Of a stretch of DNA of 64,000 bases, positions 1,292 to 31,316 are shown piece by piece. Under the pieces are notes generated by a model. It was not told where the DNA came from. It saw only the letters and a program-made list of their open reading frames with translations, and did not search any database. Source of the DNA: Halobacillus salinarum (GTDB lineage: Bacteria; Bacillota; Bacilli; Bacillales; Halobacillaceae); assembly GCF_022919095.1 (NCBI RefSeq), contig NZ_CP095073.1, forward strand, positions 1,116,001-1,180,000. The letters run 5' to 3'. The position numbers were made by a program, and so were the translations under genes. The first letter of the stretch is position 1. Each line of letters opens with the position of its first letter.

Positions 1292-4200
1292 ATGAAAAAA
1301 AGTGGAACGAGGATAGCGGTCGTTAGTTTAGTGCTGCTCTTAATTTTTTCAAGCTTTTCTAATTCCGTTTTTGCTATGACAAGCCCAAAAGCAGCAGCGG
1401 ATGTATCAGATTGGAGCTTCAGTGCCTTCGGGTCTAACACAGGTACGGATAAAAATCCGCCGGCGGTCGTGAATCAGGATGGCTCTGTCACGATCGATGC
1501 TTCGGGTGGAAAAATTGCGAGCAGTGAGGAAGGTCTGTCTTATTATTTTACGAAGTTGTCTGCAGGGGATAACTTTGAACTGCATGCCACTGTTCATGCC
1601 GACCATTACAGTCCCGACAGTCAGCGTGCCTTCGGATTGATGATTCGTGATCAAGTCGGTGAGAACGGCGATTCGAGTAAGCATTCCTCCAACTATGCTG
1701 CCGTCGGTGCGCTTGATGATGCGATGAGAGGCTTTACAAGCACGGGTGATTTAAATAAACTTGCTCCTTTCGAGGACAGCCCTGCACCTGCGACGGATGG
1801 AACGTATGAGCTTACGCTTCGCAAATCGGGCGATACGTTTGTCATGACGTCAAACGGAGAGAGTGAGACCATTGAGCTCGATCAACCGTTTTCTGACGAC
1901 ATTTATGCCGGACTGTTCGTCGCTCGTAATGGAACGGTGACGTTTAGTGATGTGTCTTTAAATGTCGCTGACAAACAGGTCAAATCTCTTCAGGTAGATG
2001 CCAGTCAAATGAAAAAGGAATACTTAGTGGATGAACCGCTCGATATAAGCGGGCTTGAAGTGACCGCTGTTTATGAGGATAACAGCGAGGAGAAGCTCAC
2101 AGACGACGATTACATTGTGACCGGTTTTGACAGCAGTAAGCCTGGTACCAATACGATAACCATCCATTACAACGGTGCTGAGGAAACCGTTGACTTATCA
2201 ATCAAAGAACTGCAATTAACAGGGATGGAAGTGAAATACTACCCCGCGAAAACGAACTACTATTTACAAGACACCTTTGACCCGCTCGGCCTTGTGGTCA
2301 CGGGAAACTACGAGGATGGCTACCAGACGAATGAGCTGACAAAGGAACAGTACTCCATTTTTATTAATGGTGAAGAAATCAGTGATTCAGGGTACATATT
2401 CGAGCAGCCTGGAAAGCAAACGGTAACCCTGCAATCGAAACAGAACCCTGATGTGAAAACGACGTTCTCAGTCCAAGTGAAAAATGAGCAGCTGGACTCG
2501 CTGGAAATCAAGCATGCCCCGACGAAGCAGCTGTATTTCTTAGGGGATCCATTAGATCTGGATGGTCTGATCGTCGAAGCCCATTACACGGATGGGGTGA
2601 GCGAACGCGTTCCTAAAGATCAATTGAAAACCTCATCTTTTGATTCCAGTACTACGGGAGATAAGAAGGTGGAAATGACTTATAAAGACAAGCAGGCAAG
2701 CTTTACCGTTCATGTGAAGAAAAAGGAATTACAAGGACTGGAGGTCAGTGAATATCCACAAACCACTTATCAAAAAGGGGAATCCTTTAACCAAGATGGT
2801 TTAGTCGTTTCAAAGGTTTATGATAACGGAGATAAAGAGATGTTAAATGAGTCGGAGTACGAGGTGTCTACTGCTGATTATGATGCGTCTACAATGGGTG
2901 TTTACCCGATTCAGATCAATCCTTCAAGCAGTACACTTTCCTCCATTTCCTTTGATGTAACCGTAAGAGAGAAGCAGAATTATCAATGGAAAACGATTGA
3001 ATTTGGCCAATCCACTGACCCGGAAACGAACTACGTGGAAAAATTGGAGGATGGAAGCGTCCATATCGTTGCCGAACCGGGGGCCGGAAAAATTACCGGC
3101 GACCATGATGGGATCACTTTTTACTATACGGAAATCGATGCGGACCAAGATAACTTCACACTCTCTGCAGATATTCAAGTGAATGAGTATGCCAAAAGCC
3201 CTCATCATGACGGGCAGGAGTCTTTTGGAATGATGGCACGAGACGCCATAGGGACAGAAGGAAATTCAAATGTGTTCGCTTCCAACATTGCAGCTGTTGG
3301 TGGTTTTAGCGGCGGCACGCAGGATCCTAATGGCACGCAGTTCTTTATCCGCTCCGGCGTCAGCTCACCGGACGGAGCAGGAAGCAATGGCATTGAAAAA
3401 GTCATGCTGAATGACGAAAAGCCGACGACTTCCAATACGTATCCTGCGAAAAACTATCACCTGACTTTAAGCAAAACAAACAGCGGCTTTTCCGGGCAGT
3501 TCAATGACGGAGATCAGCCCATGTTCTTTACCCCGGAGCTTCTTCAAGTCCAGGATGATAAAGTTTATGTCGGCTTTTATACGGCACGGCTAGCGGACAT
3601 TGAAGTCAGCAACATGGATTTTAACGTGACAGCTGAAGCAACGGACCCGCCAAAAGTTACACCACCAGAATCGCCGGTTGAACCTGAATTCGATGTGGTT
3701 TCCCGGACAAAAACCTCGGATTCTGATTATGAGCTTTTACTAAAAGCGAACGCCGATGGTGTCGTCAAAGTAAAAAAAGGCCAGGAAATTATAGCGCGGG
3801 ATGAGCCGGTTAAAAAAGGAGAAATAAAATCCGTACCCGCTCAGTTAGACGAAAACAAGGATACTAATTTCAGCGTCACTTTCCTACCCGACGATACCCA
3901 GAACTTGACCTCTTACACAAAGCAGGTTAAAAACGTGACCGTAGCGATGAAAACGTTTGCCAACGGAGAAGCGATTCACGTGTCCCCATCCGGGCAGGAT
4001 TCCGGAGATGGAACGGAGTCTTCCCCGCTTGATCTGGATACAGCGGTCGAATTCGTTCAGCCTGGCCAGAAAATCATCGTGAAAGACGGGACGTACGTAA
4101 GAAACGGCAAGCTGGAAATTGCCAAATACAATGACGGTAAAAAAGACGCCATGAAATCTTTAGTCGCTGAAAAAGGTGCACGGCCAGTCATTGATTTTGA

Positions 4201-5947
4201 CAAGCAGACCGAAGGAGTCATCTTAAGCGGAGATTACTGGCATGTGAAAGGCATAGATTTTGCCAGAACCGCAGGGAACACGAAAGGATTTGTAGTAGGG
4301 GGCAGCCACAATATTGTGGAGCAGAGCCGCTTTTATGAAAACGGGGATACCGGACTGCAGATCAGCCGTACGGACAATAGTGAATCGATCGAGGACTGGC
4401 CGTCCGATAACTTCATTCTTAATTCGGAGTCGTTTGATAACCGTGATCCTTCCGATAATAACGGGGACGGCTTTGCAGCCAAATTAACCGCAGGCACCGG
4501 GAATGTGTTCCGCGGCTGTATTTCCCACAATAACATTGACGATGGCTGGGATCTATACACGAAGGCGGGAAGTGGTGCGATTGGTCCCGTCTTGATTGAA
4601 GACAGTATTGCCTATGAAAATGGGAAACTGACCGATGGTACCGTTGGCGATGGTGACAAAAACGGATTTAAATTAGGTGGAGAAGGCATTAATGTTCATC
4701 ACGTCATCCGTAACAGCATCGCTTTCAATAATGGAGCCGTGGGAATAACGAGCAACAGCAACCCTGGGATTATCGCGGAAAATAACAAATCCTACAACAA
4801 CGCGGGAGGAAATCTTGATTTCTCTACGTATTCCAACATTGAAGAAGACTTTAAGATTGATGGATTTGTATCCTATCAAAAAGACTACGATGCTAAAGAT
4901 ATTTATCCTGATGAATTAGCCTCAAATGAGAACTTTTTCTTTAACGGCCAAGTAAGCCGGAACAAGTCAGGACGGACGCTTACGGAAAATGATTTTGTGA
5001 GCTTGGATCCGAACCTTCCGTTTGAACGAGAGGAGCAAGGAGAGATCCTGACCGGCGATTTCCTTAAGGTCCAGTTTGCTCCTGTCCGGCTGGCTGGAAA
5101 AGACCGCTATGAAACAGCGATCGAAGTGTCCAAACAAGGATTTAAGAAGGCGGATACCGTCGTCATTGCCCGCGGCGATGAGTTTGCCGATGCACTGGCC
5201 GGCGCACCGCTTGCCTATAAAGAAAATGCGCCGATTTTGTTAAGCCATACCGATTATTTAAATCAAAAGGTTCGAAAGGAAATCTCGCGGCTCGGTGCTA
5301 AGAACGCCATTATGCTCGGCGGGCCGAATGCTTTGGACGAATTCGTGAAGTATCAATTACAAGGACTTGGTCTTCACGTGGAACGGGTGTATGGAAAGAC
5401 GCGTTATAAAACAGCAACGAATATTGCAGCCCGATTAGATGGAAATCCGGAAAAAGCCATCGTCGTTAATGGTTCGAAGTTTCCGGATGCCTTAGCTGCC
5501 GCCCCGTTTGCAGCGAAGCAAGGCTACCCGATTTTGCTTGCCAAGCAAGGAAGTCTGCCGCAAAGCACGAAGTGGGCGCTTGAAGGCATAAATGAGTCAA
5601 TCGTTGTTGGCGGGGAAGGTGTTGTTGGGGGAGATGTATACAAGCAGCTTCCGAATCCGACCCGCTACAGTGGAACGACTCGTTATAAAACGGCAGCGGT
5701 CGTGATGAATGAATTAGAAGACGATACAAGTCAGACCGCTTTTGTCAGTACCGGCGAAGAATTCGCAGATGCCTTGACTGGTGCAGTCCTTGCAGCAAAA
5801 CAAAACGCAGCGATGACTCTCGTCAAAGAGGACACGGTTCCTAAAGAGGTGCAGCAGGCCTATAACCGATTACCGATTAAATATTTGTATATTCTAGGAG
5901 GACGGAATGCCGTAAGCGATCAAGCTGTGGACCAATTACAAAAGTAA
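1292..5947 (+). CDS. Secreted, cell-wall-bound family 9 pectate lyase with Big_3 and CWB2 repeats
   Basis: A 1551-residue modular surface enzyme predicted to cleave pectate by beta-elimination. A signal peptide (1-28, ending SVFA) is followed by a ConA/laminin-like domain (about 40-225), four bacterial Ig-like (Big_3) modules starting near 230, 307, 401 and 480, a second ConA-like domain (about 563-780), an Ig-like linker, a PL9 right-handed beta-helix (about 894-1245) and three CWB2 repeats (about 1264-1551). D1059, D1083, D1084 and D1087 keep the exact spacing of the Ca-binding aspartates of Erwinia Pel9A, and K1127 in NGFKLGG is the likely catalytic base. CWB2 repeats bind anionic wall polymers, so the enzyme should stay on the cell surface. 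It is monocistronic with its own promoter and terminator. No pectin uptake genes are nearby. Confidence 0.88.
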   Translation: MKKSGTRIAVVSLVLLLIFSSFSNSVFAMTSPKAAADVSDWSFSAFGSNTGTDKNPPAVVNQDGSVTIDASGGKIASSEEGLSYYFTKLSAGDNFELHATVHADHYSPDSQRAFGLMIRDQVGENGDSSKHSSNYAAVGALDDAMRGFTSTGDLNKLAPFEDSPAPATDGTYELTLRKSGDTFVMTSNGESETIELDQPFSDDIYAGLFVARNGTVTFSDVSLNVADKQVKSLQVDASQMKKEYLVDEPLDISGLEVTAVYEDNSEEKLTDDDYIVTGFDSSKPGTNTITIHYNGAEETVDLSIKELQLTGMEVKYYPAKTNYYLQDTFDPLGLVVTGNYEDGYQTNELTKEQYSIFINGEEISDSGYIFEQPGKQTVTLQSKQNPDVKTTFSVQVKNEQLDSLEIKHAPTKQLYFLGDPLDLDGLIVEAHYTDGVSERVPKDQLKTSSFDSSTTGDKKVEMTYKDKQASFTVHVKKKELQGLEVSEYPQTTYQKGESFNQDGLVVSKVYDNGDKEMLNESEYEVSTADYDASTMGVYPIQINPSSSTLSSISFDVTVREKQNYQWKTIEFGQSTDPETNYVEKLEDGSVHIVAEPGAGKITGDHDGITFYYTEIDADQDNFTLSADIQVNEYAKSPHHDGQESFGMMARDAIGTEGNSNVFASNIAAVGGFSGGTQDPNGTQFFIRSGVSSPDGAGSNGIEKVMLNDEKPTTSNTYPAKNYHLTLSKTNSGFSGQFNDGDQPMFFTPELLQVQDDKVYVGFYTARLADIEVSNMDFNVTAEATDPPKVTPPESPVEPEFDVVSRTKTSDSDYELLLKANADGVVKVKKGQEIIARDEPVKKGEIKSVPAQLDENKDTNFSVTFLPDDTQNLTSYTKQVKNVTVAMKTFANGEAIHVSPSGQDSGDGTESSPLDLDTAVEFVQPGQKIIVKDGTYVRNGKLEIAKYNDGKKDAMKSLVAEKGARPVIDFDKQTEGVILSGDYWHVKGIDFARTAGNTKGFVVGGSHNIVEQSRFYENGDTGLQISRTDNSESIEDWPSDNFILNSESFDNRDPSDNNGDGFAAKLTAGTGNVFRGCISHNNIDDGWDLYTKAGSGAIGPVLIEDSIAYENGKLTDGTVGDGDKNGFKLGGEGINVHHVIRNSIAFNNGAVGITSNSNPGIIAENNKSYNNAGGNLDFSTYSNIEEDFKIDGFVSYQKDYDAKDIYPDELASNENFFFNGQVSRNKSGRTLTENDFVSLDPNLPFEREEQGEILTGDFLKVQFAPVRLAGKDRYETAIEVSKQGFKKADTVVIARGDEFADALAGAPLAYKENAPILLSHTDYLNQKVRKEISRLGAKNAIMLGGPNALDEFVKYQLQGLGLHVERVYGKTRYKTATNIAARLDGNPEKAIVVNGSKFPDALAAAPFAAKQGYPILLAKQGSLPQSTKWALEGINESIVVGGEGVVGGDVYKQLPNPTRYSGTTRYKTAAVVMNELEDDTSQTAFVSTGEEFADALTGAVLAAKQNAAMTLVKEDTVPKEVQQAYNRLPIKYLYILGGRNAVSDQAVDQLQK

Positions 5948-29827: not shown

Positions 29828-30724
29828 TTATTCAACTAAGCTGTCTAGTGCATTCGCCAGGATGTTAACTGTTCTTTTTTCTTCTTTCAGTGTATTCTCT
29901 GCTCCCCCAATATTAATCAACAATGTGTTAGGGGATAGATCCTGATTATAAGCACCGGCTTCCGTGATTGCCTTTTCCTTCGTGATGATCCTTGATAAAC
30001 CAGGATACTGATCATTTATTTTATCATTTAGATTCTTGGCTAACCTGTGATTGTCTTCATAATAATAACTTAGTTTTGAGACAACAAACGTGATCTTAGC
30101 TGAAGTTTTCCCATTCATGGTAGACGTGGTGGTTTCTTTATCTAATGAATTCCTGTGGATATCTAAAAAAATGATGTTTTCCTTGTTAAGCTCTGTGTTG
30201 TCCAAGAAATTCGTTAAGTTTTTTCTGGATAGTCCGTAAAGTTCCTGGAAACTTTTATCTTTCTTGATCGCAATATCCATGAAGTTAGTCTCGTCATGAA
30301 ACACTTCAAAATTTTCCTTTTCTAAATATGAAGCTAAGTAGTCTCCAACCTTTATTATATTTGAGTTCTCATCAAACGCCTTAGCAGGGTCGGTTTCATC
30401 TAACTCTGGTAAAAAAGATTCTGAAGAATGAGTATGATAAATATAAAAGTGAGTATTTTTCTTATCAGCAAGGGACGATTGGAACCATGAAGATGATGAA
30501 GAGTTATTCGTAATCGTTGAAAAATCAATGGAAAGAAGGAATAAAGTACAAATAGGAATGAATAACGCAAAGCTCACCAAAGGAATTCTTTTGTTGCTTC
30601 TGCCTGAATAGTTTTTGCTTGCTAACATAGTTTTCGTTTCTTGTATGAAAGCTGGATCTGGCTTTAAAGGGTCTGATGCTTTTAATTCCTGCAAGTTTTG
30701 TTGAAGGTCGTCATGCATTTTCAT
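29828..30724 (-). CDS. Membrane protein with degenerate SpoIIP domain, candidate anti-sigma factor
   Basis: A 298-residue protein with a 46-residue cytoplasmic N terminus, one membrane helix (about 47-66) and an external SpoIIP-type amidase/endopeptidase domain (about 90-298). SpoIIP normally cleaves peptidoglycan during engulfment. His97, His99 and Glu102 (YHTHSSE) and His190 (DIHRN) keep the zinc-site pattern, but the family DxHRD reads DIHRN and the acidic residue of the LIExGG strand is Asn271 (LINIGG). The domain may therefore bind rather than cut cell wall. The gene starts 14 bases inside the ECF sigma gene, as anti-sigma genes do, and its topology suits a sensor that holds the sigma factor. 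ATG at 30724 has AGGGGG upstream. Sensor role is inference. Confidence 0.72.
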   Translation of the reverse strand: MKMHDDLQQNLQELKASDPLKPDPAFIQETKTMLASKNYSGRSNKRIPLVSFALFIPICTLFLLSIDFSTITNNSSSSSWFQSSLADKKNTHFYIYHTHSSESFLPELDETDPAKAFDENSNIIKVGDYLASYLEKENFEVFHDETNFMDIAIKKDKSFQELYGLSRKNLTNFLDNTELNKENIIFLDIHRNSLDKETTTSTMNGKTSAKITFVVSKLSYYYEDNHRLAKNLNDKINDQYPGLSRIITKEKAITEAGAYNQDLSPNTLLINIGGAENTLKEEKRTVNILANALDSLVE

Positions 30725-31256
30725 GGTAGATCCCCCTTTCAATCGAGTAATTCTTCAGGCTTTCTTTTAATTGCTTAATCGCACGGTGGTAGGTTGTTTT
30801 CACTTTACTTTCACTCCAATTCAGAACAGCAGCCGTTTCAGCAACGGTAAGTTCATTAATGCTTCTTAGAATAACTACTAAGCGGTAATTAGCTTTCAAA
30901 GCATTGATTTTATTCAAGAGCTCTGCTTTGGTTTCTTCTCTCCCGCTCAATTCTTCAGGAGAAGGTAAGGGACTCGGAATCTGATGTAACAATTTTTCCT
31001 GAAAGAAAATAAGAAACTTTCTCTTCCGGTACTGATCAATGGCCTTGTGTTTCGCGATGGACAATATCCAGGTCTTTGGGTTTTCTATGTTCTGAAGTGT
31101 ACGCTCAGCTTTTATCAGCTGCATGAATGTTTCCTGAGTTAAGTCTTCTGCATCGCTTTTATTGCCTGTGAATGTAATTAAGAATTGAAAAACATCTACG
31201 TGGTATAGATCGAAGTACTTTTCAACTTCCTCAATGTGACTGTTTTTCTTTTCCAT
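30711..31256 (-). CDS. ECF-type RNA polymerase sigma factor
   Basis: A 181-residue extracytoplasmic-function sigma factor. Region 2 spans about 15-85 (FLITFTGNKSDAEDLTQETF, then PKTWILSIAKHKAIDQYRKR) and region 4 about 115-172 (LKANYRLVVILRSINELTVA, then ETAAVLNWSESKVKTTYHRAI). The ATG at 31256 follows AGGGGG; an in-frame start nine codons earlier is weaker. Its 3' end overlaps the SpoIIP-like gene by 14 bases, implying coupled translation. A tentative self-recognised promoter lies upstream (31290-31316). Targets are not visible in this window. Confidence 0.9.
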   Translation of the reverse strand: MEKKNSHIEEVEKYFDLYHVDVFQFLITFTGNKSDAEDLTQETFMQLIKAERTLQNIENPKTWILSIAKHKAIDQYRKRKFLIFFQEKLLHQIPSPLPSPEELSGREETKAELLNKINALKANYRLVVILRSINELTVAETAAVLNWSESKVKTTYHRAIKQLKESLKNYSIERGIYHENA

Positions 31257-31289
31257 TTCATTCCCCCTCTTTAACTTTCTCATAGATAA

Positions 31290-31316
31290 CTCGTTTCATC
31301 TGCAGTGGAAGTTACA
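31290..31316 (-). promoter_or_regulatory. Tentative ECF-type promoter of the sigma operon
   Basis: On the minus strand TGTAAC (31316-31311), 17 bases and CGAG (31293-31290) resemble the TGAAAC-N16-CGTC pattern of Bacillus ECF promoters, two bases off consensus and one base longer in spacing. It lies 34 bases ahead of the start codon. Confidence 0.3.

Follow-up and report, generated by a model that had tools for sequence, protein, structure and literature searches.

A two-gene operon in Halobacillus salinarum is best explained as a self-regulated ECF sigma/anti-sigma cassette, and this reading as a whole is probably correct. The cytoplasmic tail of a membrane protein would hold the sigma factor, and the external SpoIIP fold of the same protein would act as a wall receptor. 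The gene pair, its spread, its own promoter, the exchange of modules and the pattern of residues are established at the level of sequence. Throughout, ‘the window’ refers to the whole stretch of DNA that was analysed (64,000 nucleotides).

The operon, its promoter and its distribution

The operon comprises the following elements.

31287..31316 (-): ECF-type promoter upstream of the sigma gene, TGTAAC-N17-CGAGTTA, conserved in position and spacing
30711..31256 (-): ECF sigma factor gene, 181 aa, sigma2 and sigma4 only (Pfam)
30711..30724 (-): gene overlap, 14 bases common to the sigma gene and the SpoIIP-domain gene
29828..30724 (-): SpoIIP-domain membrane protein, candidate anti-sigma factor, 298 aa
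29789..29818 (-): terminator hairpin closing the two-gene operon, a 12-pair stem followed by a T run (-14.4 kcal/mol, z = -4.3)

The sigma protein matches Sigma70_r2 (4.5e-16) and Sigma70_r4_2 (2.8e-12) in Pfam and has no sigma3, and its operon is preceded by an ECF-type promoter, as judged by sequence; both are features of ECF factors. Its closest NCBIfam models are SigX/SigM, with scores far under their cut-offs. The SpoIIP-domain gene starts with an ATG at 30724, preceded by AAGGGGGATCTACC, and ends at 29828. Coordinates and Pfam/TIGRFAM matches thus confirm the sigma/SpoIIP pair with a 14-base overlap that had been described in the initial annotation.

That annotation also proposed looking for the pair in other Bacillaceae. 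It is found there and beyond: a SpoIIP protein directly follows a sigma gene of the same type in 60 distinct proteins, with an overlap in 59 of them (overlap lengths across relatives were counted from the first in-frame start codon and are upper bounds). Because the overlapping pair recurs so often, it is not a product of chance. Relatives on genome contigs were retrieved by sigma alignment, a protein query of the contigs having given no match. The hosts include Bacillaceae, related families, many Bacillales genomes and one Paenibacillus, and the pair is carried on chromosomes, on Priestia megaterium plasmids and on one Niallia megaplasmid. Its occurrence is patchy (9/80, 8/36 and 25/200 genomes of three families), and among the genomes searched from its own family, only that of the window has a full-length copy. 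Gene neighbours vary and no conserved third gene was found around the pair, which fits a transferable two-gene cassette. The cassette was absent from viral contigs, where there was one weak SpoIIP-like match; promoter-pattern matches in these contigs were taken as chance.

Canonical SpoIIP is also encoded elsewhere in the window’s own genome and in most genomes searched. The copy in the window’s genome matches the profile from position 1 and retains the Glu, the Asp and both essential histidines. In public annotation, the sigma-linked genes are labelled simply ‘stage II sporulation protein P’.

Several other genes were observed in the course of this survey. Loci L302 and L303 encode ECF-linked proteins of ~230 aa, possibly truncated sensors; the former matches the C-terminal part of SpoIIP only, and the latter adjoins a transposase-like gene. 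Unlinked SpoIIP genes lie on large plasmids of Sporosarcina and Alkalihalophilus (L006, L007), near genes for a multicopper oxidase, a cupredoxin and a copper-binding protein. Within the window, positions 1292-5947 encode a 1551-aa putative surface protein in which Ig-like repeats, a right-handed-helix lyase-like part and C-terminal cell-wall-binding repeats were recognised by eye only.

The family promoter has the consensus TGTAAC...CGAWTAAT upstream of the sigma gene, in fuller form TGTAACYTTTT...CAAACGAWTAAT. The window promoter reads TGTAACTTCCACTGCAGATGAAACGAGTTA, with a weaker -10 element (CGAGTTA), and its edge coincides exactly with position 31316, the right edge of the region initially annotated. 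By a strict expression, the promoter is present at the same position and spacing in 57 of the 60 relatives; the remaining three keep TGTAAC and have an altered -10. A scan of 12 genomes with the strict motif gave 13 matches, each of them in front of one of these sigma genes, and the reversed control gave 0. Since the conserved promoter occurs essentially only before these sigma genes, the cassette looks self-regulated. No targets beyond the operon were found with a relaxed motif, which gave 12 matches outside the operons vs 16 in the reversed control; as these are no commoner than the control, no further targets are claimed. In the window’s own genome, the relaxed pattern gives 3 matches (control 2). 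A match at chance frequency there, TGTAAC-N16-CGACTAA near 717700 (L203), precedes a gene for a 163-aa lipoprotein-like protein, a possible target.

The tail-plus-helix module and its external domains

The membrane protein is organised as follows.

30587..30724 (-): cytoplasmic two-helix anti-sigma-type segment, aa 1-46, motif LKxxxxLxPxxxFxxxTxxxL, with tail-profile matches
30527..30577 (-): single membrane helix, aa about 50-66 by sequence, helix 50-64 in the structure model
29831..30460 (-): external SpoIIP domain, aa 89-298, by PF07454 and the fold of the structure model

Both SpoIIP models match above their cut-offs, PF07454 at 3.1e-54 (residues 74-293, 184.7 bits vs 24.4) and TIGR02867 at 5.6e-50. 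The match begins at profile position 74, and the canonical N-terminal region (profile positions 1-73) is missing. In the structure model, cytoplasmic helices at 2-16 and 24-39 and the membrane helix are followed by a zinc-carboxypeptidase/amidase-like external domain. The pLDDT is mostly high in this domain and about 60-70 in the cytoplasmic helices. Among solved structures, its fold comes closest to those of zinc aspartoacylases, M14 carboxypeptidases and the C. difficile amidase Cwp6, with modest TM scores and a best E of 9e-4. A sequence search of the PDB returned no match for the membrane protein and chance matches only for the tail, which matched no solved anti-sigma domain.

A class II anti-sigma domain is described as a pair of short helices extending to sigma4 and sigma2 (PMC7406223). 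The membrane protein shares this plan, having a short two-helix cytoplasmic segment (helices from the model) and a membrane helix, encoded beside an ECF gene. It does not resemble class I factors of the RsiW type, as it has ~46 cytoplasmic residues, no Hx3Cx2C and no Pfam match in this part.

Sigma factors of the same subfamily also precede proteins that have the same tail and helix but a different external part. A profile of the tail plus helix was searched against all reading frames of about 245 loci. It matched solely proteins adjacent to ECF sigma genes, non-SpoIIP ones included (E down to 1e-23), and no canonical SpoIIP. The stronger matches are at L045, L052-L054, L058, L059 and L318; more distant ones (L062-L068, L073, L076 and the like) are weaker, with E about 1e-8 to 1e-3. 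The external domains joined to the tail and helix are SpoIIP, SpoIID, IseA, DUF4030 and domains without a Pfam name. SpoIID (PF08486, 1.4e-22, motif FEMEALKSQALLART) is fused to the tail and helix at L318:630-1796 (+) in genome G379, where the gene overlaps an ECF sigma gene of the same subfamily. IseA, a DL-endopeptidase inhibitor, was identified by Pfam (PF16800, 6e-19 to 7e-14) in the ECF-linked membrane proteins L062, L064 and L068, and is presumably present in L063, which is near-identical to L064. At least seven changes of the SpoIIP label are required on the sigma tree, where members with other external domains fall inside the main SpoIIP-linked clade. Genome G379 also has a second copy of the L318-type sigma, at L053.

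The strongest argument for a tail directed at the sigma factor and for a replaceable input domain on the outside comes from this module swap. The comparisons support an anti-sigma factor of modular, class-II-like build, in which domains related to wall hydrolases replace one another as the external part. The anti-sigma role originally put forward for the protein is likewise favoured by the conserved overlap, the conserved promoter, and a module found only beside ECF genes with several unrelated external domains. A single-chain model of the sigma factor and tail, read through the natural overlap by a +1 step, has low confidence (pLDDT 57, pTM 0.40); larger alignments for this chain were discarded when SpoIIP rows fell on the sigma factor. 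Distance correlations indicate co-inheritance that does not single out the tail from the external domain. Wall sensing by the external domain is plausible, and because SpoIIP, SpoIID and IseA all touch peptidoglycan cleavage, wall turnover may be the input.

Active-site residues and competing explanations

Residues were mapped by alignment, with H99, E102, H190, N192 and N271 equivalent to H189, E192, H278, D280 and E359 of B. subtilis SpoIIP.

30419..30430 (-): H99-x-x-E102, a retained motif of the metal-ligand type, without variation in the linked (60/60) or the unlinked (31/31) proteins; H99 is B. subtilis H189
30149..30157 (-): H190, retained and invariant in 60/60 linked proteins, and N192, which is Asp in canonical SpoIIP
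29912..29914 (-): N271, where a catalytic Glu would be expected; Glu in 24/60 linked vs 31/31 unlinked proteins

H99, E102 and H190 are invariant across all 60 sigma-linked and 31 unlinked SpoIIP proteins, so that the pair of essential SpoIIP histidines (H189/H278 in B. subtilis) is present throughout. In C. difficile SpoIIP, H142 and H222, picked via alignment with B. subtilis, are needed for activity, and zinc was not found (PMC6221140). The two remaining positions vary among linked proteins. Position 271 is Glu in 24, Asn in 27, Asp in 5, Gln in 2, Ser in 1 and Thr in 1; the expected catalytic-base Glu is therefore absent from 36/60, vs 0/31 of the unlinked proteins. At position 192, Asp is found in 52/60 of the linked proteins and in 31/31 of the unlinked ones (departures in 8/60 vs 0/31). 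On a tree built without columns 192 and 271, the Glu/non-Glu state at 271 changes at least 16 times, gains or losses alike, a figure that is only approximate because many branches are weak.

The initial annotation had read DIHRN and N271 in the window protein, correctly, since these align with B. subtilis D280 and E359. Where a catalytic SpoIIP has the Glu of LIExGG and the Asp of DxHRD, the window protein has N271 and N192. Judging from the carboxypeptidase/amidase fold, the Glu at position 271 would be the general base, and its loss suggests that hydrolysis has probably been given up in many members, the window copy included. The earlier proposal that catalysis may be lost is thus supported: the presumed catalytic Glu is recurrently lost while the metal-type ligands stay intact, but it is kept in 24/60. 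The family is consequently not uniformly dead, and some members may be active enzymes.

These 24 members also speak for an alternative in which the SpoIIP protein is mainly an output: a wall hydrolase in the membrane that the sigma factor has produced when needed, the tail serving for feedback. Further in its favour, no strong promoter match was found other than that of the operon itself, which leaves the SpoIIP protein as the sole product in sight. This explanation is nevertheless unlikely, given that the presumed base is repeatedly lost while fold and ligands are kept, and that the same tail bears a non-enzyme, the IseA hydrolase-inhibitor-type domain.

The sigma/anti-sigma reading suggests the following mechanism. 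The two-helix tail would keep the sigma factor inactive, in the manner of a class II anti-sigma domain, and the external SpoIIP amidase fold would be a receptor for peptidoglycan or its fragments. Its HxxE...H site, with a presumed metal, would be retained for binding, hydrolysis probably having been abandoned in many members. Release of the sigma factor would follow from a change in ligand, probably with proteolysis of the membrane protein as the next step; once free, the sigma factor would transcribe its own operon first. A broader proposal, about as likely as not, is that an anti-sigma family of Bacilli repeatedly swapped its sensor (SpoIIP, SpoIID, IseA-like inhibitor), and that the SpoIIP branch repeatedly became a metal-site pseudoenzyme reading wall fragments instead of cutting the wall.

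A role in sporulation, in which the protein would be a partner or a competitor of the SpoIID-SpoIIM-SpoIIP machine and would signal engulfment to the sigma factor, would accord with the co-occurrence of canonical SpoIIP and with the sister protein that bears SpoIID. It is very unlikely, as presence is patchy, copies occur on plasmids, no sporulation gene context was seen, the promoter is of ECF type and the N-terminal extension of canonical SpoIIP is missing. It is equally improbable that the window copy is a decaying, laterally acquired cassette without present function: although its protein has the longest SpoIIP branch (0.89), a unique DIHRN and a weaker -10, and is the only full-length copy among own-family genomes searched, both frames are intact and the start sites, promoter, overlap, ligands and terminator are all retained.

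Related systems and significance

The window protein shares with canonical SpoIIP (PF07454, TIGR02867; B. subtilis, C. difficile) the external fold, both essential histidines and the HxxE Glu. It differs in having a cytoplasmic tail in place of the canonical N-terminal region, and in having lost the catalytic-type Glu and the DxHRD Asp; its gene lies beside an ECF sigma gene, while that of canonical SpoIIP lies beside gpr. Class II anti-sigma factors of the CnrY type similarly have a short two-helix segment before one membrane helix, encoded beside an ECF sigma factor. Unlike them, the protein described here has another external domain, no detectable sequence similarity and a presumed sigma contact.

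In the RsiV-SigV and SigP-RsiP/PbpP systems of Bacillus, ECF sigma factors respond to cell-wall attack, and, as proposed here, a wall-related protein serves as the sensor. RsiV senses lysozyme through a different domain. PbpP is a separate protein (PMC8092216), whereas the protein described here combines the wall-enzyme fold and the presumed anti-sigma segment in one chain. A further group with exchangeable external domains on a common regulator is that of the RsgI anti-sigma factors of cellulosome clostridia, whose outside parts are carbohydrate-active or binding domains; that the sensor of an anti-sigma factor can derive from an enzyme is thus known in general. RsgI differs in its SigI-class sigma factor, its cytoplasmic domain and its domains for plant polysaccharides, not peptidoglycan. 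No paper linking SpoIIP with an ECF anti-sigma role was found in a literature search of main texts outside subscription journals, in agreement with the initial view that no such system had been described.

How wall turnover is monitored in Gram-positive cells is largely an open question. In this cassette family, engulfment enzymes seem to serve as interchangeable receptors attached to a module that controls a sigma factor. The finding suggests that enzymes of the wall were converted into sensors governing gene expression. The natural series of proteins that keep or lose the catalytic residue offers ready-made pairs for distinguishing activity from binding alone as the signal. Many proteins annotated as ‘stage II sporulation protein P’ probably act in regulation and not as enzymes of sporulation.
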